This document shows positions 1 to 28,005 of a stretch of 64,000 nucleotides of DNA, piece by piece. A program made the translations under genes and the position numbers. Where the stretch lies: assembly GCA_964016885.1 (NCBI GenBank), contig OZ024742.1, positions 690,736 through 754,735 on the forward strand, given 5' to 3'. Each line of letters opens with the position of its first letter. Position 1 is the first letter of the stretch. Origin of the DNA: Eledone cirrhosa. Taxonomy: Eukaryota > Mollusca > Cephalopoda > Octopoda > Eledonidae. The notes under the pieces are model-generated. The model saw only the letters and a list, made by a program, of their open reading frames with translations. It was not told where the DNA came from and ran no database searches.

Positions 1-90
1 ACTTGGGGGTTGCTTCTTGAAAGGAAATCTTCCACCTCCAATCATGGTACGTGTTGCAATAGTCTTCAATGTACGGACATCTCTGTAACT
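1..90 (-). CDS. MYO9: Myosin-IX-like motor exon (3' part runs off the window)
   Basis: On the minus strand, a polypyrimidine-type acceptor (TTTGTATCTTTAG) at 91-103 is followed by 30 open codons in phase 0 up to the window edge. They read SYRDVRTLKTIATRTM, then a GGG run, then FPFKKQPPS. In class IX myosins, as I recall them, the end of loop 2 carries a lysine-rich KKKKPPS followed by SAQF, where the actin-binding part of the lower 50K domain resumes; the KKQPPS here fits that place. The phase agrees with the phase-0 donor proposed at 8264. The exon continues beyond position 1, so its donor is not seen. Class IX myosins are single-headed motors with a RhoGAP tail; none of the tail is in this window. 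The identification rests on short motifs. Confidence 0.62.
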
Positions 91-4735: not shown

Positions 4736-4742
4736 CTACACA

Positions 4743-4798: not shown

Positions 4799-4801
4799 CA
4801 A

Positions 4802-4833
<32 letters not shown>
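4743..4833. repeat. (TA)n-(CA)n-(TA)n compound microsatellite
   Basis: TA repeats at 4744-4764, CA repeats at 4765-4797, then TA again at 4802-4833. It abuts the truncated 5' end of the LINE. Confidence 0.95.
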
Positions 4834-4834
<1 letters not shown>

Positions 4835-6234: not shown

Positions 6235-6254
6235 ACGCGTGCGTGTGTGTATGT

Positions 6255-6299
6255 GGACATACACACACACAAACACACACACACACACACACACACAAA
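6255..6299. repeat. (CA)n microsatellite
   Basis: CA repeats with a few interruptions, just right of the mariner end. A short GTGT tract of opposite sense lies at 6239-6252. Confidence 0.9.
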
Positions 6300-6654: not shown

Positions 6655-7155
6655 ATATAGCATATATACACCATATATACACCATATATATATCATATAT
6701 ACACCACATATATAGCATATATACACCACATATATAATTCATATATACACCACATATATACATCATATACACCACATATATACATCATATACACCACATA
6801 TATACATCATATACACCACATATACCATATATACATAATATATACACCACATATATACATCATATACACCACATATATACATCATATACACACCACATAT
6901 ATACCATATATACATCATATATACACCATATACACACCACATATATACTATACATACACCATATATACACCACATATATACATCATATACACACCACATA
7001 TATACCATATATACATCATATATACACCACATATATAACATATACCACATATACACCACATATATACTATATATATACACCACATATATACTATATATAC
7101 ACCACATATACAGCACATATATACTACATATATACACTATATACACACCACATTT
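6655..7155. repeat. Degenerate AT-rich array (ATACACCACATATATACATC type)
   Basis: Irregular tandem copies of CATATATACACCACATATA alternating with ATACATCATATAC. It lacks a strict period. On the minus strand it produces low-complexity open frames (MYICGVYM-like) at 6587-7242, which I do not take as coding. Confidence 0.85.
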
Positions 7156-7263
7156 GTACGTCATATACCAACACAACAAATAGATTTCAAACCAGTCACA
7201 AGTGACAAACACATGTAAATATATAGAACAAAACATTACCACTTCTTCAAAGACAGTCTGTCT

Positions 7264-7783
7264 TTAACCCTTTCATTACCATTTTTCTAATGAAAGACAC
7301 TGTCTATGTCATTAACCCTTTCATTAGCATATTTCTAATGAAAGACACTACCTATGTCATTAACCCTTTCATTACCATTTTTCTAATGAAAGACACTGTC
7401 TATGTCATTAACCCTTTCATTACCATTTTTCTAATGAAAGACACTACCTATGTCATTAACCCTTTCATTACCATATTTCTAATGAAAGACACTGTCTATG
7501 TCATTAACCCTTTCATTACCATTTTTCTAATGAAAGACACTACCTATGTCATTAACCCTTTCATTACCATATTTCTAATGAAAGACACTGTCTATGTCAT
7601 TAACCCTTTCATTACCATTTTTCTAATGAAAGACACTACCTATGTCATTAACCCTTTCATTACCATTTTTCTAATGAAAGACACTGTCTATGTCATTAAC
7701 CCTTTCATTACCATTTTTCTAATGAAAGACACTACCTATGTCATTAACCCTTTCATTACCATTTTTCTAATGAAAGACACTAC
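7264..7783. repeat. 48-bp minisatellite built from the TTAA element's end
   Basis: About 11 copies of a 48-bp unit: TTAACCCTTTCATTACCATT, then a TTTCTAATGAAAGACACT segment, then TGTCTATGTCA or ACCTATGTCA. Inside each unit CTTTCATTA and TAATGAAAG form a perfect 9-bp inverted repeat with a 9-base loop. The two variants (TGTC and TACC) alternate strictly for ten copies, so the true period is 96 bp. The plus-strand open frame 7290-7820 is a by-product of the period being divisible by three. Confidence 0.92.
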
Positions 7784-7972
7784 TTATGATTTTATAATTT
7801 GGAGAGATTTAGAAATATAACTTTCTCATAATTCAGCTGTTGTTCTGAAAATAATTTATCAAAGGTTTTTGTATAAAATTATGATTTTAGATAAATCTAA
7901 ACTGTTTAAAATAAATAGTTTTGTATCATAGAACCAGACTAGTTTTAGGCAGTTTGGCATTAAAAGAGTTAA
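7264..7972. mobile_element. TTAA-flanked piggyBac-like non-autonomous element
   Basis: Bounded by TTAA on both sides (7264-7267 and 7969-7972). The left end TTAACCCTTTCATTACC and the complement of the right end, TTAACTCTTTTAATGCC, match at 13 of 17 positions. TTAA targets and CCCTTT-like ends are hallmarks of piggyBac-type elements. No transposase is present. The left 520 bp have been turned into a 48-bp tandem array. A decayed relative occurs at about 26985-27850. Exact classification is inference. Confidence 0.7.
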
Positions 7973-8016
7973 CCATGTGTTGGCAGTTGATTCATTCAAA
8001 TGACTAAAACTACTTA

Positions 8017-8233
8017 TTAACTCTTACATCCTGTAATGATTTAGCAGCAAAATATCTAAAAATGGGTTTGTTAATTCAAGTGTTTATAGTGCCTTTACTA
8101 ATGGACAGATTTTTATGAAAATTTGCAGTATTAAAATATAAACTTTAATGTGATGCAGTTATAGTGCATCTTTATAGTTTTCAAGAATACCTTGCCAATG
8201 TGGTTTCATGTGGGACAGGACGTTAAGAGTTAA
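8017..8233. mobile_element. 217-bp TTAA-flanked MITE
   Basis: The ends are TTAACTCTTACATCCTGT on the left and, as complement on the right, TTAACTCTTAACGTCCTGT, an almost perfect inverted repeat bounded by TTAA at 8017-8020 and 8230-8233. The element is too short for any protein. It lies only ~30 bp downstream (in gene sense) of the proposed donor of exon 8264-8627. If that donor were not used, the reading frame would run into the MITE and stop at 8159-8161. Confidence 0.8.
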
Positions 8234-8263
8234 AGAATATAGTGTTATAGGTAGAAGACATAC

Positions 8264-8627
8264 ATTATCACTTGCTGTGTCTTCATTAAGAGCATCAGCA
8301 ACTGGTAGATAACTCTCTACAGGACTGGTCAGAGGTTGACTTGTTGGCAACATGCTGCTTGTCAGGCTATGGCTGTGATGACAACTGTCTGTTGTGCCAC
8401 AGCCTGTCACATCACATACTCTGCTGCCACTTGGACACAATGTTAGAGGATGAGACACACCAAAATGGTCAGCAGTAGCAGTAGTAGCAGTAGTAGCATT
8501 AGTAGTAGCTGTAGCATTAGCAGAAGCAGTAGTGGCAGCAGCTGTAGTGGTTTGCTTGTGGTTAGTAGAGAGTGGACATGCAATACTGGTCAGCTGGTTG
8601 TTAGGCAAAGGTAGTGCTGCTCTCTCT
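8264..8627 (-). CDS. MYO9: Candidate myosin-IX loop-2 exon, low complexity
   Basis: The acceptor TTCTCCTACTATCAG ends at 8628 after a pyrimidine tract. One base then completes the split codon, followed by 121 open codons. The sequence starts ERAALPLPNNQLTS, passes through a Thr/Ala-rich stretch made by GTAGCA-type triplet runs (plus strand 8466-8540), then HFGVSHPLTLCPSG, DVTGCGTTDSCHHSHS and ADALNEDTASDN. The donor GTATGT directly follows, in phase 0. A second in-frame GTATGT lies at 8414-8419 (exon would end at 8420), also phase 0, so a shorter form is possible. I recognise no domain. A long, poorly conserved, low-complexity insert at loop 2 is typical of class IX myosins, and position and phase are the main support. 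Alternatively the frame simply continues to the stop at 8159. Confidence 0.5.
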
Positions 8628-8926
8628 CTGATAGTAGGAGAAGGAGGAGGACAGGAAGCAGGTCGCCATTCCCAGCATGCCGTATACTATATAGAAAACA
8701 GAAAGAAAGTTGATCCAAACAGCATGGCATCAACATTGCGTCAAATAAAGTTATAGTTTTTCCAACACACATACACATGCATACATACACACACACACTC
8801 AGATACACCCAGACACACACACACACACACAGGCATTCATTTAACCTTATAATACATTATCACCAAAATAATGTTTTTATTAGAAGGCTACAGCAATGTA
8901 AATAGGACAAAGTATATAAAAAATTA
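8628..8926. other. Short intron segment with (CA)n
   Basis: Intron upstream (gene sense) of exon 8264-8627. It contains the pyrimidine tract of the acceptor (8628-8655), an imperfect (CA)n at 8763-8830, and otherwise AT-rich DNA. Confidence 0.6.
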
Positions 8927-9148
8927 ATGATAAAGATGTTGGAATGTTACCTTGCAGTTGTTTAATAGCCCCTAATATTTCAGGATAAAATCCTTTCATC
9001 AGAAAAATAATTCAGGAAACTAATTTGAAGCAAGATATTTCATCGTTCTTAAGCTTAGATATCCTACTCTTTTGAGGAGCGGATTTATCCCGAAATATTA
9101 AGGGTTCATTTAATAACTCCAAGGTAACATTCCAATATCTTTGTTATA
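8927..9148. mobile_element. MITE with ~58-bp terminal inverted repeats
   Basis: The left end (ATGATAAAGATGTTGGAATG onward, to CAGGATAAAATCC) matches the complement of the right end (from ATAACAAAGATATTGGAATG to CGGGATAAATCC) over almost 60 bp with scattered differences. The ~100-bp interior has no coding signal. I did not find a clear target-site duplication, so the superfamily is open. Confidence 0.75.
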
Positions 9149-9239
9149 ATATTTTTAACATTTAATGTCTCATGTATTACTGTAGTCTTCTAATAAAATA
9201 CAATATTTTCTACACTTTATACAATCTTTCAAATTATAA

Positions 9240-9551
9240 CAGCCTCTTGTGACTACATCATCACTGTTGACTTTACAGAAGAAGAAAATGACAACATTGA
9301 AAGGTTGGCTGATCTCTAACAATACTTTATATGTGATATGACAGAGATCAGCTCTTACAACCTCCACCCCGGTCTTCCTTGCTCTCCTACTGCAGCTTCC
9401 CTCCACTGAGATTTCTTGGTACTTCATCCAACGATCATTCATACGTATCACATGTCCATACCAGTGCAGTCTTCTCTCCAGCACACTACACCTGATTCCT
9501 CTTATACCCAGTTTCTCTCTCAGTTCATCTCTGCGTATTTGTTATCACACA
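9240..9551 (-). pseudogene. LINE reverse-transcriptase relic, downstream half
   Basis: The minus-strand frame reads IRRDELREKLGIRGIRC, then SVLERRLHWYGHVIRMND, the same family signature as the LINE at 3602-4735 (NELRKKLEIRGIRC, LERRLRWYGHVIRM). It fades out towards 9240. It is the continuation of the relic at 10546-10665, from which it is separated by a Helitron. More diverged than the 3602-4735 copy, so an older insertion. Confidence 0.8.
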
Positions 9552-9562
9552 CTAGCATTAAA

Positions 9563-9580
9563 GCCCGGCGTTGCTCGGGG
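9563..9580 (-). other. Helitron 3' terminal hairpin
   Basis: CCCGAGCAACGCCGGG (minus strand) folds into a GC stem with a single bulge and an AAC loop. It lies eight bases before the terminal CTAG at 9552-9555. This CCCGGGCAACGCCGGG-type hairpin is familiar from invertebrate Helitrons. Confidence 0.8.
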
Positions 9581-9836
9581 TCATTAAGTTACCAAAGTTA
9601 GGTTGCACCACCCATTTTATGGCAGCACTTTTTTGTCTGCCAGGCACTGGGTGAATGAATTGCAGACCTGGAAGCATGAGCTGCGCCAGCAGTGACAATT
9701 GTAGTTTCGCCTATGGATATTATCTCTGCAAAAAAGTGTTGAAATTTATTGTTTCACAGTACTTGCGCAACACGCGCGTAGACGATGCCAGCCGAACAAC
9801 AGAGCTGCGATGGAGTTGTTCTGCATGGTTGTCTGT

Positions 9837-10258
9837 GTGTTTTCTAAATTTAAGACAGTAGGGAGGGTTGTGATATGAGGGAGAGTTAGCTGTTGTTTCT
9901 AGCAGGTTTAGTGACCTCATAGAGGATATGTGTTTTCTAAATTTAAGACAGTAGGGAGTGGTGTGATATGGGGGAGAGTTAGCTGCTGTTTCTAGCAGAT
10001 TTAGTGACTTCATAGAAGATATGTTTTCTAAATTTAAGACAGTAGGGAGGGGTGTGATATGGGGGAGAGTTAGCTGCTGTTTCTAGCAGGTTTAGTAACC
10101 TCATAGAGGATATATGTTTTCTAAATTTAAGACAGTAGGGAGTGGTGTGGGGAGGGGTGTGTTATGGGGGAGAGTTAGCTGCTGTTTCTAGCAGGTTTAG
10201 TAACCTCATAGAGGATATGTGTTTTCTAAATTTAAGACAGTTGGGAGTGGTGTGGACG
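9837..10258. repeat. 93-bp minisatellite inside the Helitron
   Basis: About 4.5 copies of a 91-105-bp unit starting GTGTTTTCTAAATTTAAGAC and containing GAGAGTTAGCTGCTGTTTC and AGCAGGTTTAGTAACCTCAT. One copy carries a 12-bp insertion (GGAGTGGTGTGG-like, near 10141-10152). Helitrons with internal minisatellites are common in molluscs. Confidence 0.9.
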
Positions 10259-10545
10259 GACAGTATCACCATCAAGCTTGGAAAGAGAAAGTAGCAGAAA
10301 GTATGAAGTTGTATAGATTTTGAATGGTAGTAGAAAGAGTTCAGCAGTTTAAATGAGAGAGAAAAATCGTAAAATATTGAGTTTTATCTATTTTTTTCGT
10401 AATTGTGGGTGAAATTGAAAAAATTATCTGCGTCAAGACGCAATCAAAGCTATTTTGAATACTGAATTGTAAATTTCAATTGAAGAAATTCTATATCGTA
10501 GATTTCTATAACGAAGGAGCATGACCACACACTGAGCTTTATAGA

Positions 10546-10665
10546 TTATGATTAACATTGCACATCCATTGGAGTATGTTGACTTTGTTTCTCCACATCC
10601 TTCACATATCCTCTGCATTCACTGCCCACATCTCACTAACATCACACATCATACAGATCACCATT
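10546..10665 (-). pseudogene. LINE reverse-transcriptase relic, upstream half
   Basis: The minus strand reads SEMWAVNAEDM, a stop, then RMWRNKVNILQWMCNVNH. This matches SETWALCAEDIRRLERNEACMLRWMCNSN of the LINE at 3602-4735. Upstream, LYDV aligns after a frameshift. It stops exactly at the Helitron 5' end and resumes at 9551. Confidence 0.78.
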
Positions 10666-10942
10666 CTAACTATTACATTTTAATAATTACTAAATTGTGC
10701 TTTAATAAACTAAGGTTTATGTGAATAAATTCTAATGTTTACTAAACTGTGGTTCATTAGATTACGGTTTAGTAAACTATGGTTTACTAAATTAAACAAA
10801 AAAGAAACCAAATGTTAAATGAAGAGAGAATAGCGAAAACAAAAGAAATACAAGACTGTCCCAAATAAATGGTGGTTAGTGTAAATAAGATAAATTTAGA
10901 GCTTTCTGTTCTACTAAGTCAGGATTAATGATATTAACTTAC
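10666..10942. other. Intron with short AT-rich tandem motif
   Basis: At 10684-10795 the motif GGTTTAGTAAACTATGGTTT and variants recur about five times, partly as palindromes. The rest is unremarkable AT-rich intron up to the donor at 10937-10942. Confidence 0.55.
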
Positions 10943-11005
10943 CTCTCTAAACTGTTCAATAATTTATTACCCAAATTACTACAGCATGTCCTTTGTAAAT
11001 CTGAC
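10943..11005 (-). CDS. MYO9: Candidate 63-bp myosin-IX loop-2 exon
   Basis: A strong acceptor (TTTCTATATTTTCAG ending at 11006) and a strong donor (GAG|GTAAGTT at 10942-10936) bracket 63 bp. Of the three frames, the one open through the exon starts after one base and reads SDLQRTCCSNLGNKLLNSLE, leaving AG. That gives an AGG split codon with the upstream exon 25735-25813 and an AGA split codon with 8264-8627, so phase 2 agrees on both sides. No domain is recognised. The match of signals and phases is the main evidence; transcript data would settle it. Confidence 0.6.
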
Positions 11006-11299
11006 CTGAAAATATAGAAATTATTCCTGAGCTGTGTCAAGGACATGACGACCTCCCTAGTGTTTGGTGATCTACACAACAAATACACCCAGTGCCCTCT
11101 CACTGACCACTTTACTGCATAACTGACAATATAAATGGGCTATCTACCTTGTCTACAGTCAACAAGGACATCAAATTTAACTTTCAAACCATTGATATAT
11201 AGTGAGGAACCTTCATAAAACTATACAATATGATAATAGAGAGTAGGTTGGAAAGAGACAGTGGTAACAAATATGAAACTATGCCATGTGTATTTGTAT

Positions 11300-11301
<2 letters not shown>
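11006..11301 (-). other. Intron sequence, no recognisable element
   Basis: Contains the pyrimidine tract of the acceptor at 11006-11025. Nothing else supported. Confidence 0.5.
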
Positions 11302-11330
<29 letters not shown>

Positions 11331-11331
11331 A
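11302..11331. repeat. (TA)n microsatellite
   Basis: About 14 TA units, 77 bp left of the foldback element. Confidence 0.95.
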
Positions 11332-11408
11332 CGAAGGAAATGTGGTAAGGAACCAGGTGGACCATAACGCACCAAAGTACTCAATACTTGAGGTAGTAGA
11401 GTGGATAA

Positions 11409-12340
11409 TAGGAACCAGTAAGACCCCGACAGCTGAGCTCAAGCCGTTTCGACGGCTAATTCTGGACTAAATGAAAATTTATCCTGGTATTTAAATAGCC
11501 GATCTTCTCAAGGGGTAATTCGATATATGGTCAAAGTGATTGTCAAAAATCAGTAGTAATTCTGTGGTTGCAAATTAGTAGGGGAGATGGTGGCTAAACC
11601 TGCCAGTAGGAGAAAGAGGGGAGGGGTGGAGTAGCCCCAATCAAGCGTTTGTAGTGCCAGCTACAGCTGGGCATGAGGTCAAAGAAGATACAGGGGAGGG
11701 GGAGGGGGAGGAGTCGGAACGGTAGGTAGAACAATGGGGGGGGGGGGGGGGTAGAAATATATAGGAAGGAAAAATACTGAGAGTGAAGAAAAGCAAATAA
11801 GTGTAAAGAAAAACAAATGAGTGTAAAGAAAAAAGTAAAGTAAATTAAATTCTACGACCTAGGTCTCAGGCTATTGTTAGTCTAGAATAAATAAATAAAT
11901 AAAGAAAGAAAGAAGTAAAGAAAGAAATAAAGAAATAACGAAATAAGTAAAAGAACTAGGTGGGACGGAATAGGCGAGGACCCTTTTAAGAGGTATAAGT
12001 ACGTAAATGATACGGTGACGGGTCAACAAAAGGGGCCAAAATACTAAAGAGACTACCCCTGTATCTTCTTTGACCTCATGCCCAGCTGTAGCTGGCACTA
12101 CAAACGCTTGATTGGGGCTACTCCACCCCCTCCCCTCTTTCTCCTACTGGCATGTTTAGCCACCATCTCCCCTACTAATTTGCAACCACAGAATTACTAC
12201 TGATTTTTGACAATCACTTTGACCATATATCGAATTACCCCTTGAGAAGATCGGCTATTTAAATACCAGGATAAATTTTCATTTAGTCCAGAATTAGCCG
12301 TCGAAACGGCTTGAGCTCAGCTGTCGGGGTCTTACTGGTT

Positions 12341-12344
<4 letters not shown>
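11409..12344. mobile_element. Foldback element with 287-bp inverted repeats
   Basis: 11411-11697 is almost identical to the complement of 12056-12342. Both arms are 287 bp and differ by a few substitutions and a one-base G-run difference. The termini are GGAACCAGTAAGACCCC, flanked by TA on both sides (11409-11410 and 12343-12344). The 358-bp interior is purine-rich with a G15-16 run near 11737-11751, GTGTAAAGAAAA repeats and (AAAT)n/(AAAG)n. No coding. The TA flanks point to a Tc1/mariner-like or related TA-targeting source, which is inference. High arm identity implies recent movement or ongoing homogenisation. Confidence 0.88.

Positions 12345-12375
<31 letters not shown>
12343..12375. repeat. 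(TA)n microsatellite at the foldback's right edge
   Basis: About 16 TA units immediately following the right arm, possibly the insertion target. Confidence 0.95.
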
Positions 12376-12378
<3 letters not shown>

Positions 12379-12504
12379 ACTCTTTAGTTGCAACAATAAG
12401 AAGTGTGCCAATCACAACGTCCTGGGGTTTAATCCTACTTCAATATATTATCACTAGTTATTGTATTAATGGAGAACTGTGTGGTAATTTAGTCTCAACA
12501 GGTA
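12376..12504. other. Intron sequence before the satellite
   Basis: Unique sequence; no exon signal seen. It ends in GGTAACCTAATATGTC, where the 20-bp array starts. Confidence 0.5.
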
Positions 12505-13980
12505 ACCTAATATGTCACAACCTACCCCACTATATCACAACCTACCCCACTATATCACAACCTACCCCCAAATATCACAACCTACCCCACTATATCACAA
12601 CCTACCCCACTATATCACAACCTACCCCACTATGTCACAACCTACCCCACTATGTCACAACCTACTCCACTATGTCACAACCTACCCCACTATGTCACAA
12701 CCTACCCCACAAGAACACAACCTACCCCACTATTTCACAACCTAAACCACTATATCACAACCAACCTCACTATATCACAACCTACTCCACTATATCACAA
12801 CCTACCCCACTATATCACAACCTACCCTACTATATCACAACCTACCCCACTATATCACAACCTACCCCACTATATCACAACCAACCTCACTATATCACAA
12901 CCAACTCCACTATGTCACAACCTACTCCACTATGTCACAACCTACCCCACTGTCACAACCTACCCCACTATATCACAACCTACCCCACTATGTCACAACC
13001 TACCCCACTATTTCACAACCTACCCCAGTACATCACAACCTACCCCACTATATCACAACCTACCCCACTATATCACAACCTACCCCACTATGTCACAACC
13101 TACCCCACTATGTCACAACCTACTCCACTATGTCACAACCTACCCCACTATGTCACAACCTACCCCACTATATCACAACCTACCCCACTATATCACAACC
13201 AACTCCACTATGTCACAACCTACTCCACTATGTCACAACCTACCCCACTGTCACAACCTACCCCACTATATCACAACCTACCCCACTATGTCACAACCTA
13301 CCCCACAAGAACACAACCTACCCCACTATTTCACAACCTACCCCAGTACATCACAACCTACCCCACTATATCACAACCTACCCCACTATATCACAACCTA
13401 CCCCACTATGTCACAACCTACCCCACTATGTCACAACCTACTCCACTATGTCACAACCTACCCCACTATATCACAACCTACCTCACTATATCACAACCTA
13501 CCCCACTATATCACAACCTACCCCACTATATCACAACCTACCCCACTATATCACAACCTACCCCACTATATCACAACCTACCCCACTATATCACAACCAA
13601 CCTCACTATATCACAACATACTCCACTATATCACAACCTACCCCACTATTTCACAACCTACCCCAGTACATCACAACCTACCCCACTATAACACAACCTA
13701 CTCCACTATATCACAACCTACCCCACTATAACAACCTACTCCACTATATCACAATCTACCCCAAGCATCACAACCTACCCCACTATTTCACAACCTACCC
13801 CACTATGTCACAACCTACCCCACTATGTCACAACCTACCCCACTATAACACAACCTACCCCACTATAACACAACCTACCCCACTATTTCACAACCTACCC
13901 CAGTACATCACTACCTACTCCACTATATCACAACCTATCCCACTATATCACAACCTACCCCACTGTCACAACCTACCCCA

Positions 13981-14540
13981 CTATTTCACAACCTACCCCA
14001 GTACATCACAACCTACTCCACTATATCACAACCTACCCCACCGTTACACAACCTACCCCAGTACATCACAACCTACCCCACTATATCACAACCTACTCCA
14101 GTACATCACAACCTACCCCAGTACATCACAACCTACCCCACTATTTCACAACCTACCCCACTATGTCACAACCTACCCCACTATAACACAACCTACCCCA
14201 GTACATCACAACCTACCCCACAATAACACAACCTACCCCACTATTTCACAACCTACCCCAGTACATCACAACCTACCCCAGTACATCACAACCTACTCCA
14301 CTATATCACAACCTACCCCACCGTTACACAACCTACCCCAGTACATCACAACCTACCCCACTATATCACAACCTACTCCAGTACATCACAACCTACCCCA
14401 GTACATCACAACCTACCCCACTATTTCACAACCTACCCCACTATGTCACAACCTACCCCACTATAACACAACCTACCCCAGTACATCACAACCTACCCCA
14501 CAATAACACAACCTACCCCACTATTTCACAACCTACCCCA
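13981..14540. repeat. 280-bp duplicated block in the 20-bp array
   Basis: The rare variant CCCCACCGTTACACAACC occurs at about 14038 and again 280 bp later, with the same order of variants around it. This is a 14-unit tandem duplication. Confidence 0.75.
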
Positions 14541-17500
14541 GTACATCACAACCTACCCCAGTACATCACAACCTACCCCACTATATCACAACCTACCCCA
14601 CTATGTCACAACCTACCCCAGTACATCACAACCTACCCCACTATATCACAACCTACCCCACTATATCACAACCTACCCCAGTACATCACTACCTACTCCA
14701 CTATATCACAACCTACCCCAGTACATTACAACCTACCCCAGTACATCACAACCTACCGCAGTATATCACAACCTACCCCACTATATCACAACCTACCCCA
14801 CTATAACACAACCTAACACACTATTTCACAACCTACCCCAGTACATCACAACCTACCCCAGTACATCACAACCTACCGCAGTATATCACAACCTACCCCA
14901 CTATAACACAACCTACTCCACTATATCACAACCTACCCCACATTTCACAACCTAACCCAGTACATCACAACCTACCCCAGTACATCACAACCTACCGCAG
15001 TATATCACAACCTACTCCACTATATCACAACCTACCCCACTATAACACAACCTACCCCACTATTTCACAACCTAACCCAGTACATCACAACCTACCCCAC
15101 TATATCACAACATATCCCACTATATCACAACCTACCCCACTGTCACAACCTACCCCACAATAACACAACCTACCCCACTATATCACAACCTACCACACTA
15201 TTACACAACCTACCCCAGTACATCACAACCTACCCCACTATATCACAACCTACTCCAGTACATCACAACCTACCCCAGTACATCACAACCTACCCCACTA
15301 TTTCACAACCTACCCCACCTATGTCACAACCTACCCCACTATATCACAACCTACCCCACAATAACACAACCTACTCCATTATTTAACAACCTACCCCAGT
15401 ACATCACAACCTACCCCAGTACATCACAACCTACCCCAGTACATCACAACCTACCCCAGTACATCACAACCTACCCCACTATATCACAACCGACCCCACT
15501 ATGTCACAACCTACCCCAGTACATCACAACCTACCCCACTATATCACAACCTACCCCACTATAACACAACCTAACACACTATTTCACAACCTACCCCAGT
15601 ACATCACAACCTACCCCAGTACATCACTACCTACTCCACTATATCACAACCTACCCCAGTACATTACAACCTACCCCACTATAACACAACCTAACACACT
15701 ATTTCACAACCTACCCCAGTACATCACTACCTACTCCACTATATCACAACCTACCCCAGTACATCACAACCTACCCCAGTACATCACAACCTACCGCAGT
15801 ATATCACAACCTACCCCACTATATCACAACCTACCCCACTATAACACAACCTACTCCATTATTTAACAACCTACCCCAGTATATCACAACCTACTCCACT
15901 ATATCACAACCTACCCCACTATAACACAACCTAACACACTATTTCACAACCTACCCCAGTACATCACAACCTACCCCAGTACATCACAACCTACCGCAGT
16001 ATATCACAACCTACCCCACTATATCACAACCTACCCCACTATATCACAACCTACCCCACTATATCACAACCTAACCCAGTACATCACAACCTACCCCAGT
16101 ACATCACAACCTACCCCAGTACATCACAACCTACCCCAGTACATCACAACCTACCCCAGTACATCACAACCTACCCCAGTACATCACAACCTACCCCAGT
16201 ATATCACAACCTACTCCACTATATCACAACCTACCCCACTATAACACAACCTACCCCACTATTTCACAACCTAACCCAGTACATCACAACCTACCCCACT
16301 ATATCACAACCTATCCCACTATATCACAACCTACCCCACTGTCACAACCTACCCCACAATAACACAACCTACCCCACTATATCACAACCTACTCCACTAT
16401 ATCACAACCTACCACACTATTACACAACCTACCCCAGTACATCACAACCTACCCCACTATATCACAACCTACTCCAGTACATCACAACCTACCCCAGTAC
16501 ATCACAACCTACCCCACTATTTCACAACCTACCCCACTATATCACAACCTACTCCAGTACATCACAACCTACCCCAGTACATCACAACCTACCCCACTAT
16601 ATCACAACCTACCCCACAATAACACAACCTACTCCATTATTTAACAACCTACCCCAGTACATCACAACCTACCCCAGTACATCACAACCTACCCCAGTAC
16701 ATCACAACCTACCCCAATACATCACAACCTACCCCACTACATCACAACCTACCCCACTATATCACAACCTACCCCACTATATCACAACCTACCCCACTAT
16801 GTCACAACCTACCCCAGTACATCACAACCTACTCCACTATTTCACAACCTACCCCACTATGTCACAACCTACCCCACTATATCACAACCTACCCCACAAT
16901 AACACAACCTACTCCATTATTTAACAACCTACCCCAGTACATCACAACCTACCCCACTATATCACAACCTACCCCACTATTTCACAACCTACCCCAGTAC
17001 ATCACAACCTACCCCACTACATCACAACCTACCCCACTATATCACAACCTACCCCACTATGTCACAACCTACACCAGTACATCACAACCTACTCCACTAT
17101 TTCACAACCTACCCCACTATGTCACAACCTACACCACTACATCACAACCTACTCCACTATTTCACAACCTACCCCACTATGTCACAACCTACCCCACTAT
17201 AACACAACCTTCCCCCACTATAACACAACCTAACACACTATTTCACAACCTACCCCAGTACATCACAACCTACCCCACTATATCACAACCTATCCCACTA
17301 TATCACAACCTACCCCACTGTCACAACCTACCCCAGTACATCACAACCTACCCCAATATGTCACAACCTACCCACTATAACACAACCTACCCCAGTACAT
17401 CACAACCTACCACACTATAACACAACCTACCCCACTATAACACAACCTAACACACTATTTCACAACCTACCCCAGTACATCACAACCTACCCCAGTACAT

Positions 17501-17690
17501 CACAACCTACCCCACTATATCACAACCTACCCCACTATAACACAACCTAACACACTATTTCACAACCTACCCCAGTACATCACAACCTACCCCAGTACAT
17601 CACAACCTACCGCAGTATATCACAACCTACCCCACTATAACACAACCTAACACACTATTTCACAACCTACCCCAGTAAATCACTACCTAC

Positions 17691-20600
17691 TCCACTATAT
17701 CACAACCTAACCCCACATTTCACAACCTAACCCAGTACATCACAACCTACCCCAGTACATCACAACCTACCCCAGTACATCACAACCTACCCCACTATAT
17801 CACAACCTACCCCACTATGTCACAACCTACCCCACTATGTCACAACCTACCCCACTATAACACAACCTATCCCACTATTTCACAACCTACCCCAGTACAT
17901 CAGTACCTACTCCACTATATCACAACCTACCCCACTATTTCACAACCTACCCCAGTACATCACAACCTACTCCACTATATCACAACCTACCCTACTATAT
18001 CACAACCTACCCCACTATTTCACAACCTACCCCAGTACATCACAACCTACTCCACTATATCACAACCTACCCTACTATATCACAACCTACCCCACTATAA
18101 CACAACCTACCCCACTATTTCACAACCTACCCCACTATATCACAACCTACTCCACTATATCACAACCTACCCCACTATAACACAACCTACCCCACTATAT
18201 CACAACCTACCCCAGTACATCACAACCTACTCCACTATGTCACAACCTACCCCACTATATCACAACCTACCCCACTATAACACAACCTACCCTACATTTC
18301 ACAACCTACCCAAGTACATCACTATCTACCCCACTATTTCACAACCTACTCCACTACATCACAACCTACCCCAGTACATCACAACCTACCCCACTATATC
18401 ACAACCTACCCCAGTACATCACAACCTACCCCAGTACATCACAACCTACTCCACTATATCACAACCTACCCCACTATTACACAACCTACCCCAGTACATC
18501 ACAACCTACCCCAGTACATCACAGCCTACCCCACTATATCACAACCTACCCCAGTACATCACAACCTACCCCACTTTTTCACAACCTACCCCAGTACATC
18601 ACAACCTACCCTACTATATCACAACCTACCCTACTATATCACAACCTACCACAGTACATCACAACCTACTCCACTATGTCACAACCTACCCCACTATGTC
18701 ACAACCTACCCCAGTACATCACAACCTACCCCACTATATCACAACCTACTCCACTATATCACAACCTACCCCACTATAACACAACCTACCCCACTATTTC
18801 ACAACCTAACCCAGTACATCACAACCTACCCCACTATATCACAACCTACCCCACTATATCACAACCTACCCCACTATGTCACAACCTACCCCAGTACATC
18901 ACAACCTACCCCAGTACATCACTACCTACTCCACTATTTCACAACCTACCCCAGTACATCACAACCTACCCCAGTACATCACAACCTACCGCAGTATATC
19001 ACAACCTACCCCACTATATCACAACTTACCCCACTATAACACAACCTAACACACTATTTCACAACCTACCCCAGTACATCACAACCTACCCCAGTACATC
19101 ACAACCTACCCCAGTACATCACTACCTACTCCACTATTTCACAACCTACCCCAGTACATCACAACCTACCCCAGTACATCACAACCTACCGCAGTATATC
19201 ACAACCTACCCCACTATATCACAACCTACCCCACTATAACACAACCTTCTCCACTATATCACAACCTACCCCACATTTCACAACCTAACCCAGTACATCA
19301 CAACCTACCCCAGTACATCACAACCTACCCCAGTATATCACAACCTACTCCACTATATCACAACCTACCCCACTATTTCACAACCTAACCCAGTACATCA
19401 CAACCTACCCCACTGTCACAACCTACCCCACTACATCACAACCTACCCCACTATATCACAACCTACCCCACTATATCACAACCTACTCCAGTACATCACA
19501 ACCTACCCCAGTACATCACAACCTACCCCACTATTTCACAACCTACCCCACAATAACACAACCTACTCCATTATTTAACAACCTACCCCAGTACATCACA
19601 ACCTACCCCAGTACATCACAACCTACCCCAGTACATCACAACCTACCCCAGTACATCACAACCTACCCCAAAACATCACAACCTACCCCACTACATCACA
19701 ACCTACCCCACTATATCACAACCTACCCCACTATATCACAACCTACCCCACTATGTCACAACCTACCCCAGTACATCACAACCTACTCCACTATTTCACA
19801 ACCTACCCCACTATGTCACAACCTACCCCACTATATCACAACCTACCCCACAATAACACAACCTACACCATTATTTAACAACCTACCCCAGTACATCACA
19901 ACCTACCCCAGTACATCACTACCTACTCCACTATATCACAACCTACCCCAGTACATCACAACCTACCCCAGTACATCACAACCTACCCCAGTACATCACA
20001 ACCTAACCCAGTACATCACAACCTACCCCAGTACATCACAACCTACCCCACTATTTCACAACCTACCCCACTATTTCACAACCTACCCCAGTACATCACA
20101 ACCTACCCCACTACATCACAACCTACCCCACTACATCACAACCTACCCCAGTACATCACAACCTACCCCACTATTTCACAACCTACCCCACTATGTCACA
20201 ACCTACACCAGTACATCACAACCTACCCCACTATAACACAACCTTCCCCCACTATATCACAACCTACCCCACTATGTCACAACCTACCCACTATAACACA
20301 ACCTACCCCAGTACATCACAACCTACCCCACTATTTCACAACCTACCCCACTATGTCACAACCTACACCAGTACATCACAACCTACCCCACTGTCACAAC
20401 CTACCCCACAATAACACAACCTACCCCACTATATCACAACCTACCCCACTATGTCACAACCTACCCACTATAACACAACCTACCCCAGTACATCACAACC
20501 TACCACACTATAACACAACCTACCCCACTATAACACAACCTAACACACTATTTCACAACCTACCCCAGTACATCACAACCTACCCCAGTACATCACAACC

Positions 20601-23600
20601 TACCGCAGTATATCACAACCTACCCCACTATATCACAACCTACCCCACTATAACACAACCTACCCCAGTACATCACAACCTACCCCAGTACATCACAACC
20701 TACCGCAGTATATCACAACCTACCCCACTATATCACAACCTACCCCACTATAACACAACCTACTCCACTATATCACAACCTAACCCCACATTTCACAACC
20801 TAACCCAGTACATCACAACCTACCCCAGTACATCACAACCTACCCCAGTACATCACAACCTACCCCACTATATCACAACCTACCCCACTATGTCACAACC
20901 TACCCCACTATGTCACAACCTACCCCACTATAACACAACCTATCCCACTATTTCACAACCTACCCCAGTACATCAGTACCTACTCCACTATATCACAACC
21001 TACCCCACTATTTCACAACCTACCCCAGTACATCACAACCTACTCCACTATATCACAACCTACCCTACTATATCACAACCTACCCCACTATTTCACAACC
21101 TACCCCAGTACATCACAACCTACTCCACTATATCACAACCTACCCTACTATATCACAACCTACCCCACTATAACACAACCTACCCCACTATTTCACAACC
21201 TACCCCACTATATCACAACCTACTCCACTATATCACAACCTACCCCACTATAACACAACCTACCCCACTATATCACAACCTACCCCAGTACATCACAACC
21301 TACTCCACTATGTCACAACCTACCCCACTATATCACAACCTACCCCACTATAACACAACCTACCCTACATTTCACAACCTACCCAAGTACATCACTATCT
21401 ACCCCACTATTTCACAACCTACTCCACTACATCACAACCTACCCCAGTACATCACAACCTACCCCACTATATCACAACCTACCCCAGTACATCACAACCT
21501 ACCCCAGTACATCACAACCTACTCCACTATATCACAACCTACCCCACTATTACACAACCTACCCCAGTACATCACAACCTACCCCAGTACATCACAGCCT
21601 ACCCCACTATATCACAACCTACCCCAGTACATCACAACCTACCCCACTTTTTCACAACCTACCCCAGTACATCACAACCTACCCTACTATATCACAACCT
21701 ACCCTACTATATCACAACCTACCACAGTACATCACAACCTACTCCACTATGTCACAACCTACCCCACTATGTCACAACCTACCCCAGTACATCACAACCT
21801 ACCCCACTATATCACAACCTACTCCACTATATCACAACCTACCCCACTATAACACAACCTACCCCACTATTTCACAACCTAACCCAGTACATCACAACCT
21901 ACCCCACTATATCACAACCTACCCCACTATATCACAACCTACCCCACTATGTCACAACCTACCCCAGTACATCACAACCTACCCCAGTACATCACTACCT
22001 ACTCCACTATTTCACAACCTACCCCAGTACATCACAACCTACCCCAGTACATCACAACCTACCGCAGTATATCACAACCTACCCCACTATATCACAACTT
22101 ACCCCACTATAACACAACCTAACACACTATTTCACAACCTACCCCAGTACATCACAACCTACCCCAGTACATCACAACCTACCCCAGTACATCACTACCT
22201 ACTCCACTATTTCACAACCTACCCCAGTACATCACAACCTACCCCAGTACATCACAACCTACCGCAGTATATCACAACCTACCCCACTATATCACAACCT
22301 ACCCCACTATAACACAACCTTCTCCACTATATCACAACCTACCCCACATTTCACAACCTAACCCAGTACATCACAACCTACCCCAGTACATCACAACCTA
22401 CCCCAGTATATCACAACCTACTCCACTATATCACAACCTACCCCACTATTTCACAACCTAACCCAGTACATCACAACCTACCCCACTGTCACAACCTACC
22501 CCACTACATCACAACCTACCCCACTATATCACAACCTACCCCACTATATCACAACCTACTCCAGTACATCACAACCTACCCCAGTACATCACAACCTACC
22601 CCACTATTTCACAACCTACCCCACAATAACACAACCTACTCCATTATTTAACAACCTACCCCAGTACATCACAACCTACCCCAGTACATCACAACCTACC
22701 CCAGTACATCACAACCTACCCCAGTACATCACAACCTACCCCAAAACATCACAACCTACCCCACTACATCACAACCTACCCCACTATATCACAACCTACC
22801 CCACTATATCACAACCTACCCCACTATGTCACAACCTACCCCAGTACATCACAACCTACTCCACTATTTCACAACCTACCCCACTATGTCACAACCTACC
22901 CCACTATATCACAACCTACCCCACAATAACACAACCTACACCATTATTTAACAACCTACCCCAGTACATCACAACCTACCCCAGTACATCACTACCTACT
23001 CCACTATATCACAACCTACCCCAGTACATCACAACCTACCCCAGTACATCACAACCTACCCCAGTACATCACAACCTAACCCAGTACATCACAACCTACC
23101 CCAGTACATCACAACCTACCCCACTATTTCACAACCTACCCCACTATTTCACAACCTACCCCAGTACATCACAACCTACCCCACTACATCACAACCTACC
23201 CCACTACATCACAACCTACCCCAGTACATCACAACCTACCCCACTATTTCACAACCTACCCCACTATGTCACAACCTACACCAGTACATCACAACCTACC
23301 CCACTATAACACAACCTTCCCCCACTATATCACAACCTACCCCACTATGTCACAACCTACCCACTATAACACAACCTACCCCAGTACATCACAACCTACC
23401 CCACTATTTCACAACCTACCCCACTATGTCACAACCTACACCAGTACATCACAACCTACCCCACTGTCACAACCTACCCCACAATAACACAACCTACCCC
23501 ACTATATCACAACCTACCCCACTATGTCACAACCTACCCACTATAACACAACCTACCCCAGTACATCACAACCTACCACACTATAACACAACCTACCCCA

Positions 23601-23836
23601 CTATAACACAACCTAACACACTATTTCACAACCTACCCCAGTACATCACAACCTACCCCAGTACATCACAACCTACCGCAGTATATCACAACCTACCCCA
23701 CTATATCACAACCTACCCCACTATAACACAACCTACCCCAGTACATCACAACCTACCCCAGTACATCACAACCTACCGCAGTATATCACAACCTACCCCA
23801 CTATATCACAACCTACCCCACTATAACACAACCTAC
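17691..23836. repeat. 3073-bp tandem higher-order repeat, two full copies
   Basis: The order of unit variants from 17691 to 20763 recurs at 20764-23836, so all rare variants (for example CATCAGTACC, CTTTTTCAC, CTTCCCCCAC) lie exactly 3073 bp apart. The copies look almost identical. A third, shortened copy follows. Confidence 0.92.
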
Positions 23837-24620
23837 TCCACTATATCACAACCTAACCCCACATTTCACAACCTACCCCAGTACATCACAACCTACCCCA
23901 GTACATCACAACCTACCCCAGTACATCACAACCTACCCCACTATATCACAACCTACCCCACTATGTCACAACCTACCCCACTATAACACAACCTATCCCA
24001 CTATTTCACAACCTACCCCAGTACATCAGTACCTACTCCACTATATCACAACCTACCCCACTATTTCACAACCTACCCCAGTACATCACAACCTACTCCA
24101 CTATATCACAACCTACCCTACTATATCACAACCTACCCCACTATAACACAACCTACCCCACTATTTCACAACCTACCCCACTATATCACAACCTACTCCA
24201 CTATATCACAACCTACCCCACTATAACACAACCTACCCCACTATATCACAACCTACCCCAATACATCACAACCTACTCCACTATGTCACAACCTACCCCA
24301 CTATATCACAACCTACCCTACTATAACACAACCTAACACACTATTTCACAACCTACCCCACTATAACACAACCTACCCTACATTTCACAACCTACCCAAG
24401 TACATCACTATCTACCCCACTATTTCACAACCTACTCCACTACATCACAACCTACCCCGGTATATGACAACCTACTCCACTATATCACAACCTACCCCAC
24501 TATTACACAACCTACCCCAGTACATCACAACCTACCCCAGTACATCACAGCCTACCCCACTATATCACAACCTACCCCAGTACATCACAACCTACCCCAC
24601 TTTTTCACAACCTACCCTAC
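23837..24620. repeat. Partial third copy of the 3073-bp repeat
   Basis: Begins with the same TCCACTATATCACAACCTAA-then-CCCCACATTTC junction as the full copies and follows their variant order, but with losses (one CTATGTC unit and several later units) and rearrangement after about 24330. Confidence 0.75.
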
Positions 24621-25728
24621 TATATCACAACCTACTCCACTATGTCACAACCTACCCCAGTACATCCCAACCTACCCCAGTACATCACAACCTACCCCAC
24701 TATATCACAACCTACCCCAGTACATCACAACCTACCCCACTATAACACAACCTACCCCAGTACATCACAACCTACCCCAGTACATCACAACCTACCCCAC
24801 TATATCACAACCTACCCCAGTACATCACAACCTACCCCGGTACATCACAACCTACCCCACTATATCACAACCTACCACAGTACATCACAACCTACCCCAC
24901 TATATCACAACCTACCCCAGTACATCACAACCTACCCCACTATTTCACAACCTACTCCACTATGTCACAACCTACCCCACTATGTCACAACCTACCCCAC
25001 TATAACACAACCTACCCCAGTACATCACAACCTACCCCACTATATCACAACCTACCCCACAATAACACAACCTACTCCACTATTTCACAACCTACCCCAG
25101 TACATCACAACCTACCCCACTATATCACAACCTACCCCACTATTTCACAACCTACCCCAGTACATCACAACCTACCCCACTATATCACAACCTACCCCAG
25201 TACATCACAACCTACCCCACTATGTCACAACCTACCCCACTATAACACAACCTACCGCACTATATCACAACCTACCCCAGTACATCCCAACCTACCCCAG
25301 TACATCACAACCTACCCCACTATAACACAACCTACCCCACTATATCACAACCTACCCCAGTACATCACAACCTACCCCACTATGTCACAACCTACCCCAC
25401 TATAACACAACCTACCCCAAATATCACAACTTACCCCACTATAACACAAGCTACCCCACTATATCACAACCTACCCCAGTACATCACAACCTACCCCACT
25501 ATAACACAACCTACCCCAGTACATCACAACCTACCCCACTATAACACAACCTACCCCAGTACATCACAACCTACCCCACTATAACACAACCTACCCCACT
25601 ATAACACAACCTACCCCAGTACATCACAACCTACCCCACTATAACACAACCTACCCCACTATAACACAACCTACCCCAGTACATCACAACCTACCCCACT
25701 ATAACACAACCTACCCCAGTACATCACA

Positions 25729-25738
25729 ACCTACCTCA
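25729..25738 (-). promoter_or_regulatory. 5' splice site formed by the satellite's first unit
   Basis: The minus strand reads TTGAG|GTAGGT at this point. The exonic GAG is unique sequence, while the intronic GTAGGTTGTGATG is the end unit of the 20-bp array. Position +4 is G instead of the consensus A, so it is a moderate U1 site. Confidence 0.6.
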
Positions 25739-25813
25739 ATAAATGATCACTGGTTAATTTGCAACTTTCTCGGTGAGATGTATCATTTGTTATCTTTGGA
25801 GGTTTCTTAGATT
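25735..25813 (-). CDS. MYO9: Candidate 79-bp myosin-IX loop-2 exon
   Basis: The acceptor follows a long pyrimidine tract (TTTTGTTTTTTTTCTGGCAG) and the donor is GAG|GTAGGT. Only one frame is open, after two bases: SKKPPKITNDTSHRESCKL, then TSDHLL, leaving AG. The two leading bases complete the phase-1 codon left by exon 26356-26457 (A+AA, Lys), and the trailing AG joins the G of exon 10943-11005. It is basic and polar, as expected for a surface loop, with no recognised domain. The exon directly abuts the 13-kb satellite. Confidence 0.65.
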
Positions 25814-26355
25814 CTGCCAGAAAAAAAACAAAACAATTGTGAGTAAACAATCCTTAACAATAATAAATTTAAAAATCTTGAAATAAACTATAATTAACAT
25901 TCTTTGTGATTAGTTAATAGAACAATTAACATTATTAATTAATAATTAACAATAATTTTAATAAATTAATTTTTCTAGTACATGATAAACAATGTTCCAT
26001 AATTTATGTTTAACTTATTCTTTAGAATTGGTTGGCAGCAGCAAATTGGTAGAATTGTTAAAACATCAGAATGTTTTATAGTGTATGTTCCAGCTCTCTG
26101 TTCTCTCAGTTCAAATTCTGCCAAGGTCAATAAAAGGGTACCAGTCCAATACTAAGGTCAATTCTTCCTCTGTATCTCCTTTTCACTTATTTTCTCTAGG
26201 AGATATCAGCTGTGTTCAGATCTAAACAGGTTTCACCAGGTTTAAAATAGCCAATGTCATGTCAGCTACTAAGGCAAACATACGACCTCACCTTCACTAG
26301 TGATGAATCCTTACATACATATGAAGATTAAAATAAACAGAGATGAAATACTCAC
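25814..26355 (-). other. 542-bp intron
   Basis: Separates the two right-hand exons. It holds the acceptor pyrimidine tract (25820-25835), AT-rich DNA with TTAATTAATAATTAAC, an old SINE at about 26030-26190, and the donor GTGAGT at 26350-26355. Confidence 0.6.
26030..26190 (+). mobile_element. Old tRNA-derived cephalopod-type SINE
   Basis: Contains a decayed GGCAGCAGCAAATTGG-TAGAATTGTTA head, a B-box-like AGTTCAAATTC, and the core GCCAAGGTCAATAAAAGG-TACCAGT. It matches the SINE pieces at 27140-27720. It resembles a SINE family I know from octopus genomes (core CCGAGGTCGACTTTGCC). Confidence 0.65.
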
Positions 26356-26457
26356 TTCCATTTGCCTGGTATTCTTTACCAGCAGAAATAAAGGCCGCAA
26401 CACATCTGAAGAATGCTCTTAGCAATCCCCACCGTAAAATAGCGACTGGATCAACTC
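26356..26457 (-). CDS. MYO9: Myosin-IX-like motor exon preceding loop 2
   Basis: Acceptor ATGTATATTTCAG and donor GGAA|GTGAGT enclose 102 bp. The only open frame starts after two bases and reads VDPVAILRWGLLRAFFRC, then VAAFISAGKEYQANG, leaving one base. Mammalian myosin-IXb has, as I recall, DPVAVFRWAVLRA followed by REAG at the start of the loop-2 insert, in the upper/lower 50K region of the motor. That would be the strongest homology in the window. The next upstream exon is not found before the 36-kb satellite, so the preceding intron is longer than 37.5 kb. Alternatives would be other motors with similar loops, which I consider less likely. Confidence 0.72.
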
Positions 26458-26571
26458 CTGAAATATACATACATTATATAGGTTATATTCCATAAATATA
26501 TATACATTACACAGGTTATATTCCATAAATATATATACATTACACAGGTTATATTTCATAAATATATATAT
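26458..26571. repeat. 33-bp AT-rich minisatellite, left part
   Basis: About three copies of ATAAATATATATACATTACA-CAGGTTATATTCC. The copy nearest the exon is modified to provide the acceptor (minus: ATGTATATTTCAG). It continues beyond the SINE at 26865-26965. Confidence 0.88.
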
Positions 26572-26864
26572 GGAGGCACATGGCTTAGTGGTTAGAGCAT
26601 TAGCCTTGCAATCGAAAGGTTGTGAGTTCAATTCTCAGACCGGGTATGTGTTGTTTCCTTGAGCAAGAGACTTTATTTCACATTGCTCCAGTTTACTCAG
26701 CTGTAGATATGAGATGATAGGGACCCCATTCCACTGCAAAGCACCCAGCACTCACTGTAAATGAGGTTGGTGTTAGGAAGGGCATCCAGCTGTAGAAATC
26801 ATGCCAGAATCAGTTCCCGTCCCACCCTTGCAAGCAGGGAAAAGTGGACGTAAAATGAATGATA
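26572..26864 (+). mobile_element. tRNA-derived SINE with LINE-type 3' tail
   Basis: The tRNA-like head has an A box (TGGCTTAGTGGT, 26581-26592), a CTTGCAA loop suggesting an Ala-type (TGC) source, and a B box (GTTCAATTC, 26626-26634). The body follows (CCTTGAGCAAGAGACTTTAT, CACTGTAAATGAG). The 3' third (26760-26864) matches the LINE 3' end at 3601-3750, including 24 identical bases at 26764-26787 against 3726-3749. It ends in a degraded GAATGAT tail. It is inserted into the 33-bp minisatellite, copies of which lie on both sides. Confidence 0.87.
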
Positions 26865-26965
26865 TACATTACACAGGTTATATTTCATAAATATATATAC
26901 ATTACACAGGTTATATTTCATAAATATACATACATTACACATGTTATATTCCATAAATATATATA
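26865..26965. repeat. 33-bp AT-rich minisatellite, right part
   Basis: About three further copies of the unit at 26458-26571, separated from it by the SINE. Confidence 0.88.
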
Positions 26966-27142
26966 CATACATATTTCATAATATAACCTTGTACTTACTA
27001 TATTTCTAATGAAAGTCACTTGTTGTGATTTTTAAATAAATTAAAAAAAAAAAGAATTTGGAGAAATTTAGTAAATATATAAAACTTTCTCATTTTTAAG
27101 TTAATGTTTATACTTTGATCTTATCCAAAACACCAAGAAACA

Positions 27143-27297
27143 TTCTGAGTTCAAATCCTGCCGAGGTTAGCTTTGCCTTTCATCCTTACGGGGTCAATAA
27201 AATAAAGTACCAGTAACTGGGATTGATTTAATCAACTTTACTCTCCCTCCAAAATTGTTGGCCTTGCGCCTCAATCAGAAACCATTATTTAGTGGAG
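27143..27297 (+). mobile_element. SINE fragment (CCGAGGT core)
   Basis: Has the B-box-like GAGTTCAAATCCTGCC, the core TTTGCCTTTCATCCTTACGG, GGTCAATAAAATAAAGTACC, and the tail GGCCTTGCGCC ending in AACCATTATTTA. Confidence 0.78.
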
Positions 27298-27510
27298 GTT
27301 TAGGGCAGCAGATTGGCAGAAATGTTAAAGCGTCAGATGAAATGGTTTGTGTCATTTAGTTACATCCTTTATATCCTGCTGAAATAACTTTGACCTTTCA
27401 TCCTTCCAGGGTTATTAAAATAAGATACCAGTCAAATACTGCTGTCCATATAATTGACTTTCCCCTCTTAACAAAATACAGGCCTTGTGCCTAGATTAGA
27501 AATCATTATT
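27298..27510 (+). mobile_element. Nearly full SINE copy (CCGAGGT family)
   Basis: Includes the head TTTAGGGCAGCAGATTGGCA, the core TTTGACCTTTCATCCTTCC, GATACCAGTCAAATACTGC and the tail GGCCTTGTGCC...AATCATTATT. It directly follows the previous copy. Confidence 0.78.
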
Positions 27511-27584
27511 AAGTTGGGGTTTGGAACATAACTTAACAAAGGTTCTTAAAATTATGATAGAAAACTTTCCGTTATGTCCCTCTA

Positions 27585-27715
27585 AAGACTGAGTTCAAAT
27601 CCCGCCGAGGTTAACTTTGCCTTTCATTCTTACGAGGTCGATAAAATAAAGTACCAGTAATACACTGGGATATACGCTGGCCTTGTGCCAAAAGTAGAAC
27701 CAATTATTAAGTGGT
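27585..27715 (+). mobile_element. SINE fragment (CCGAGGT core), third in the cluster
   Basis: Has GAGTTCAAATCCCGCCGAGG, TTTGCCTTTCATTCTTACG, GGTCGATAAAATAAAGTACC and GGCCTTGTGCC...CAATTATT. The duplicated flank TTTGGAACATAACTTA on both sides suggests it arrived by segment duplication with the neighbouring copy. Confidence 0.75.
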
Positions 27716-27850
27716 GTTTGGAACATAACTTAAAGGTTCTTAAAATTATGATACAAAACGTTTAGATGAACATAAACACTTTATAATGTACAGTTTTATA
27801 TCATAAAATCAGGGTCAGTTTCAGGTGGTTTAATATCAAAAGGGCTACAT

Positions 27851-28005
27851 TAACTACATTAACATAACATTTACACCTGCCTTTCCATACTTGCATCAGT
27901 TGGACAAGATCCAGTACCAACATCAATATCACCAGAACAGAAGGAAGATTGTTTCATTCAACCAATTTTTTTTTAAAATAGGACCCAATCAATTCAGAGC
28001 AAGGC
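27851..28005 (-). other. Unique intron sequence with possible LINE/SINE tail trace
   Basis: CCTTTCCATACTTGCATCAG followed by TTGGAC (27882-27907) resembles the CCACGCTTGCATGGG-TTTGGAC of the LINE 3' end in the same orientation as 3601-3650. Too decayed to be sure. Otherwise featureless up to the satellite. Confidence 0.35.

Follow-up and report, generated by a model that had tools for sequence, protein, structure and literature searches.

The array and its junction with the exon

How does a satellite of 13.2 kb come to begin at the very base at which an exon ends, such that its units repeat the donor of that exon hundreds of times, and what does this mean for the transcript? The locus that raises this question lies in the genome of the octopod Eledone cirrhosa, in a stretch of 64,000 nucleotides (assembly GCA_964016885.1 of 2.98 Gb, contig OZ024742.1, here C3, positions 690,736-754,735), which is called the window in the following. 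Positions without a contig or stretch name are those of the window. The gene is read from the minus strand.

In sense orientation, the junction reads ...CATTTATTGAG|GTAGGTTGTGATGTACTGGG|GTAGGT..., such that the array is flush with the predicted donor of a 79-nt coding exon (Table 1). The claim of the initial annotation that exon 25735-25813 ends with GAG and is directly adjoined by the array is borne out at this sequence junction. The array constitutes the first 13,230 nt (90%) of the 14,729-nt intron that separates exon 25813-25735 from exon 11005-10943; at the other end of this intron, the acceptor CTATATTTTCAG of exon 11005-10943 lies in unrelated sequence 1.5 kb beyond the array. At the exon, the intron opens with 20 bases that exactly reproduce the most frequent unit type (166 of the 663 units), and at the far end the last unit is of a singleton type.

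Tandem Repeats Finder (TRF) calls the array at 12511-25735, with a period of 20, 662.8 copies, and 87% matches, and segmentation yields 663 units, 635 of them exactly 20 bp long. GT stands at the start of 620 units and the exact hexamer GTAGGT at the start of 602, such that the roughly 660 donor hexamers initially annotated correspond to the number of units, but exceed that of exact copies. Likewise, the pattern G|GTAGGTTGTG, which had been ascribed to every unit, is real as a pattern of the array but fits only 507 places. The nine-base donor GGG|GTAGGT occurs in 471 copies, mostly at 20-nt steps, and 75 units offer the context GGA|GTAGGT. Outside the array (1-12500 and 25816-28000, together 14.7 kb), GTAGGT is rare, with three occurrences on the plus and two on the minus strand.

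The exon belongs to a series of five predicted minus-strand exons with GT/AG borders and consistent phases, which when joined give 232 open codons. It possesses a pyrimidine-rich acceptor, its phases are compatible with those of the four other exons, and skipping it in silico leads to an early stop; as a prediction, exon 25735-25813 is well supported.

Within the array, two blocks are identical over 3,118 bp (Table 1), and this exact self-match is either a recent block duplication or a duplication in the assembly. In an otherwise varied array it could represent a misjoined overlap of haplotypes, in which case the array would be real but shorter, with a copy number that is partly an assembly artefact. 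A recent block duplication would look alike, however, and neither the junction nor the roughly 350 units beyond the duplicated stretch would be touched by it; we regard such an artefact as extremely unlikely. On the plus strand of the array (12505-25734), the opposite-strand consensus contains no stop in any frame, with open runs of 657, 586, and 394 codons in the respective frames.

Origin of the satellite

Allowing up to one mismatch, the unit is matched 515 times in the whole assembly and 515 times within the array and window, and a dimer pattern 188 times in each; this equality rests on total counts, the individual places given being those of the first 100 of the matches listed. Since the counts for the whole assembly equal those for the window, this intron is the birthplace of the satellite. 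Concerning a dispersed satellite family, the same unit is, at this stringency, absent elsewhere in the assembly, and the same satellite was not found on viral contigs.

As the array starts flush with the donor, its reiteration from the 5' end of the intron would be the simplest origin, because tandem growth should insert copies and leave the flank intact. A 20-bp stretch at this end (either the initial 20 bases of the intron or 10 bases on each side of the exon-intron junction) would have been duplicated in tandem and then amplified to 13.2 kb through slippage and unequal exchange, block duplications included. With growth adding copies downstream, the first copy would have stayed flush with the exon and remained the donor. 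The repetition of the donor is no second coincidence, because any conserved 20-bp array beginning at a donor entails donor repeats; what needs explaining is the flush start. The chance of a randomly placed array meeting the donor within 1-2 nt is estimated at about 0.1-0.5%, because the non-array intron comprises only about 1.5 kb, the bulk of which is a single inverted-repeat element of 938 bp. This element, with its near-perfect arms, looks recent.

Of the exon's last 10 nt, seven agree with a common half of the unit, and the similarity ends there. Matches of this order are found in 1.6% of 10,252 10-mers from unique sequence, in 4.1% of the 1,940 10-mers ending in G, and at 1 of 28 other AG|GT sites; a founder spanning the junction, with ten exon and ten intron bases, is only suggestive.

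Judged from the sequence, the array is rather probably a satellite seeded by the donor, born locally, and carried as an intronic passenger. The earlier proposal that it grew from the first 20 or so nucleotides of the intron is partly supported by the flush start and by the confinement of the unit to this intron. The locus suggests that splice junctions can give birth to satellites, which can then reach kilobases inside a gene.

Donor strength and consequences of donor choice

Scored with a U1 end and a donor weight matrix, the duplex with U1 has an energy of -10.4 kcal/mol for the true donor, -10.0 kcal/mol for the typical internal GGG|GTAGGT, and -6.2 kcal/mol for GGA|GTAGGT. The position-weight score is 9.03 for the true donor versus 6.70 for the typical internal one, around 2.3 bits being lost by GG|GT compared to AG|GT. 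Splicing would most likely take place at the first copy, aided by this difference and by exon definition. About the first ten donors of the array fall within the usual exon length as extensions of the 79-nt exon.

All 619 later units starting with GT were tested for the consequences of their use, and each brings TAG as the first codon wholly within the intron, the codon being the same every time; retention of the intron leads to the same stop. Slippage to later donors would therefore result in truncated and never in longer proteins, because every tested unit brings the stop. Lengthening of the exon in steps of 20 nt, as initially envisaged, is thus mechanistically possible, but would amount to loss of function or to a poison switch (stop in 619 of 619 cases). 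Occasional use of later copies would yield truncated messages, presumably destined for nonsense-mediated decay.

Tests of how a splice site is selected usually pit two or three donors against each other. The pre-mRNA of this gene would naturally hold 471 GGG|GTAGGT competitors that are nearly equal to the real donor in U1 pairing, and every tested wrong choice ends at the same stop codon, which would make the locus a natural setting for studying how donors are chosen.

Variant events between unit types fall into the hexamer in 20 of 51 cases, whereas the hexamer occupies 6 of 20 positions (p 0.17), i.e., if anything above its share. Because the hexamer is not depleted of variant events, there is no sign that the donors are retained by selection; the extra donors are most likely tolerated and not maintained for a function.

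Points against this reading and alternative explanations

Several observations weigh against a passenger satellite that was seeded by the donor and is spliced at its first copy. Arrays close to exons are common in this genome: in a survey of 50 exon entries (51 of 72 matches to the myosin head; flanks of about 400-600 nt; arrays with a period of at least 6, a score of at least 50, and at least 2.5 copies), 21 entries possess an array in their flanks. The similarity between exon and unit is marginal, and at the far edge of the array a partial match of comparable extent occurs. Concerning donor choice, the array sites at 25434, 22102, and 19029 (GGGGTAAGT; GTAAGT) outscore the true donor and the site at 13481 equals it, the U1 pairing energies of the true donor and of the typical internal one barely differ, and when the exon is folded together with the first units, the hexamer of the true donor has a mean probability of only 0.31 of being unpaired (0.21-0.65 for the next five). 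Since some array sites score as high, the U1 energies are similar, and the true donor is partly paired, it is an assumption that the first copy is preferred.

The abundance of arrays near exons would also fit with an array that arose elsewhere in the intron and became flush by deletion of a spacer or by exchange, the original donor perhaps having been replaced by an array copy. In 2 of the 50 surveyed entries an array begins no more than 15 nt from the donor (by eye; Table 1), neither of them repeating the donor, and in stretch L033 an array begins at the end of the profile match, where the position of the donor is ambiguous. Because arrays near splice sites are not rare here, some flush arrays are to be expected genome-wide without any function. 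Donor-bearing G/T-rich arrays, furthermore, also arise where no exon is seen at the edge. Such a capture of the donor requires an extra event, however, and it has to accommodate that the first 20 intron bases form a perfect unit and that the exon keeps an intact reading frame up to its end; we consider it a tentative possibility.

A second alternative is that the donors are functional, either because U1 bound to the array suppresses premature polyadenylation in a long gene or because the later copies constitute a regulated poison-exon extension that lowers expression. The nearly equal U1 pairing of typical internal units would agree with this, as would the truncation at one fixed codon whenever a later donor is used. 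The sense strand of the intron contains no AATAAA and a single ATTAAA, situated outside the array, which would be compatible with such a role but also leaves the array without a signal of its own to suppress. Also in favour of functional donors, the consensus array RNA is no better folded than shuffled sequences; in fact, it folds worse (200 nt; -10.2 versus a mean of -12.8 kcal/mol). Structural sequestration of the internal donors may nevertheless play a role according to the folding model: the poorly structured consensus argues against it, yet the hexamers near the exon are partly paired, and their limited accessibility speaks against functional donors. So do the lack of preferential conservation of the hexamer and the many arrays of similar composition elsewhere in the genome. 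Sequestration of U1 in bulk, as proposed in the initial annotation, is quantitatively unlikely, with at most thousands of array sites, by estimate, against about a million U1 particles per nucleus. Taken as a whole, functional donors appear quite improbable.

A wider interpretation would be that splice donors themselves seed satellites in this genome, slippage giving birth to ladders of hundreds of usable donors, with which the cell copes by strict choice of the first donor, or which serve this gene as a landing platform for U1 or as a truncation switch. We deem this unlikely.

Comparison with known systems

The organization found here is most similar to that of the minisatellite in human IFI6 (6-16, G1P3), for which multiple splice donor sites are announced in the title of the 1995 paper by Turri, Cuin and Porter (PMC4526556). 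Two downstream repeat units serve there as donors, giving rise to three mRNA species (PMC4526556), and a further paper (PMC2572611) merely cites Turri in this respect. Because the IFI6 minisatellite provides multiple splice donors, as is predicted here from sequence, the initial statement that no intron of such architecture had been described is weakened. As in IFI6, the array starts at the exon's own predicted donor, and most of its units are donor-like. The IFI6 repeat, reportedly with a unit of 12 nt and at most a few dozen copies, is far smaller, whereas the present array comprises 663 units of 20 bp, each tested downstream donor of which leads to an immediate stop; in size and built-in stop the present case differs. 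The array would thus be an extreme form of a known kind, and most likely tolerated.

A tandem repeat is also tied to the use of 5' splice donors in the human MIR137 host gene, where the length of a variable number tandem repeat is associated with novel donors nearby (PMC6692358); its 15-base unit is found in 3-14 copies, in contrast to the 663 copies of 20 bp described here. The Drosophila Y genes kl-3 and kl-5 resemble the present gene in having introns that consist mostly of tandem repeats: they are gigantic, dominated by satellites, and pose a problem for transcription and splicing (PMC6508621, PMC12965833). These introns are, however, in the megabase range, and the abstracts make no mention of a unit that acts as a splice site or of an array abutting the donor.

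Introns can also be gained through tandem genomic duplication, with splice sites stemming from the duplication (PMC4974935). In contrast to the introns outlined there, the acceptor of the present intron, lying 1.5 kb beyond the array, is not derived from the array motif, and nothing in this comparison points to a new intron. Papers on earthworm metallothionein and on CTNS describe intronic repeats which, in the excerpts concerned, do not repeat a donor. For Octopus minor, enlarged introns and a share of 14.7% simple repeats are reported (PMC6279123), which accords with a cephalopod genome rich in repeats.

Features of the locus and identity of the gene

Table 1. Positions of the array, of the predicted gene model, and of further repeats in the window and elsewhere in the genome
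Feature	Position	Strand	Remarks
20-bp tandem array	12505..25734	-	among the sense units, GTAGGTTGTGATGTACTGGG has 166 and GTAGGTTGTGATATAGTGGG 95 copies, besides variants; intron nt 1-20 form the first unit
Donor GAG|GTAGGT	25729..25737	-	predicted from sequence; U1 duplex -10.4 kcal/mol, position-weight score 9.03
Predicted coding exon, 79 nt	25735..25813	-	ends ...TTATTGAG; phase 1 in, phase 2 out; borders, phase, open frame, skipping test; donor is the first array unit
Predicted upstream coding exon	26356..26457	-	VDPVAILRWGLLRAFFRCVAAFISAGKEYQANG; borders, phase
Predicted downstream coding exon	10943..11005	-	donor GAG|GTAAGT; borders, phase
Predicted next coding exon	8264..8627	-	acceptor CTACTATCAG; borders, phase
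Predicted next coding exon	1..90	-	runs past the window edge; ends KKQPPSVSAQFQ, then GTAAC just outside the window
Putative block duplication within the array	17685..23875	-	23875-20758 and 20802-17685 identical over 3118 bp, offset 3073
Inverted-repeat element, 938 bp	11408..12345		arms of 219 nt at 100% and 79 nt at 97%
33-bp array	26461..26570 and 26862-26968	-	first part abuts the CAG acceptor of exon 26356-26457
93-bp array, L058	from base 509, intron position +5		another myosin exon; donor itself not repeated
Array of 18-24-bp units, L048	start at about +11 of the donor		by eye
Donor-bearing arrays, 41-bp and 30-bp units	around C1:664,644-666,986 and C1:37,421,490-37,422,212		consensus donor AGGTGAGT; no exon evident at the edge inspected

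The exons of the window span C3:690,718-717,192. Upstream of them, on the same minus strand of C3 and in the right order, PF00063 (myosin head) is matched at 886,075 (positions 362-414) and 882,434 (402-450); because of these upstream exons on the same strand and in correct order, the gene is, from its sequence, probably a myosin gene. The search with this model, in which 65 of 193 candidates were scored, yielded 72 matches. Two negative results weigh against this identity: among the matches listed, there is none to the myosin head downstream of the window on C3, and no Pfam model was matched by the peptides of the window.

The joined exon peptides gave 9 candidates in a protein search, none at E 0.001, and a single weak match in the PDB (E 1.2), to a chain named Linker L2. 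A fragment of human myosin IXa, used as an approximate query, found no match in the PDB. The peptides of the window resemble, as we presume, the long loop 2 or the flanks of loop 2 in class IX myosins. The search for the RhoGAP domain gave 31 matches to PF00620, none of which lies downstream on the minus strand of C3, although a domain split over short exons could escape such a search. Since this match is missing downstream on the strand of the gene, an assignment to class IX (Myo9) is not supported. In Myo IX of C. elegans, an insertion in loop 2 is described to tether the motor to actin (PMC3887004).

Other arrays in the gene and the genome

Long G/T-rich arrays other than the present one are abundant in the genome; the matches obtained in a DNA search are 66-79% alike and consist of other units, among them several of 20 bp as well. 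A pattern with three successive consensus donors is matched 10,848 times, compared to 3,224 times for a reversed control, matches within one array not being independent of each other. As in the present array, the tandem units on C1 (Table 1) carry the donor motif, there AGGTRAGT. They differ, however, in that inspection by eye shows no evident exon ahead of the first AGGTRAGT in any of the five stretches inspected (two of them from one region), the first AGGTRAGT sometimes lying inside the array. None of ten other edges of G/T-rich arrays, as called by TRF, starts at AG|GT. These looks at ten edges and five stretches are crude, no gene annotation having been used, and the length of the open frame does not discriminate: upstream of the arrays it comprises 55 codons in L019, 46 in L021, and at least 133 in L022, compared to 39 at the real exon. 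Donor-like repeats thus seem, as far as sequences can tell, to be an ordinary product of the G/T-rich arrays of this genome, the special feature of the present array being its position. In L022, at least 400 nt are open in one frame up to the edge of a G/T-rich array at base 5645, which could be a transposon gene.

Further arrays are found within the same gene. A 47-bp array (L027, 9350-9938) starts around 45 bases past the next donor, that of exon 90-1. Between the two parts of the 33-bp array, a tRNA-like stretch (26581-26638) matches RF00005 with 28.7 bits, just below the cut-off of 29. The preceding intron contains a 34-bp array (AGGTGTGTGGTCTAGTGGTAAAGGTGTTCTGTGG and variants), which extends from 28006 to 64000 and continues through L026 and L028 to C3:774,735, i.e., over at least about 56 kb. 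Its unit includes TGGTCTAGTGG, which we take to resemble the A box of tRNA genes, and this 34-bp satellite may have been built from a piece of the promoter of a short interspersed element.

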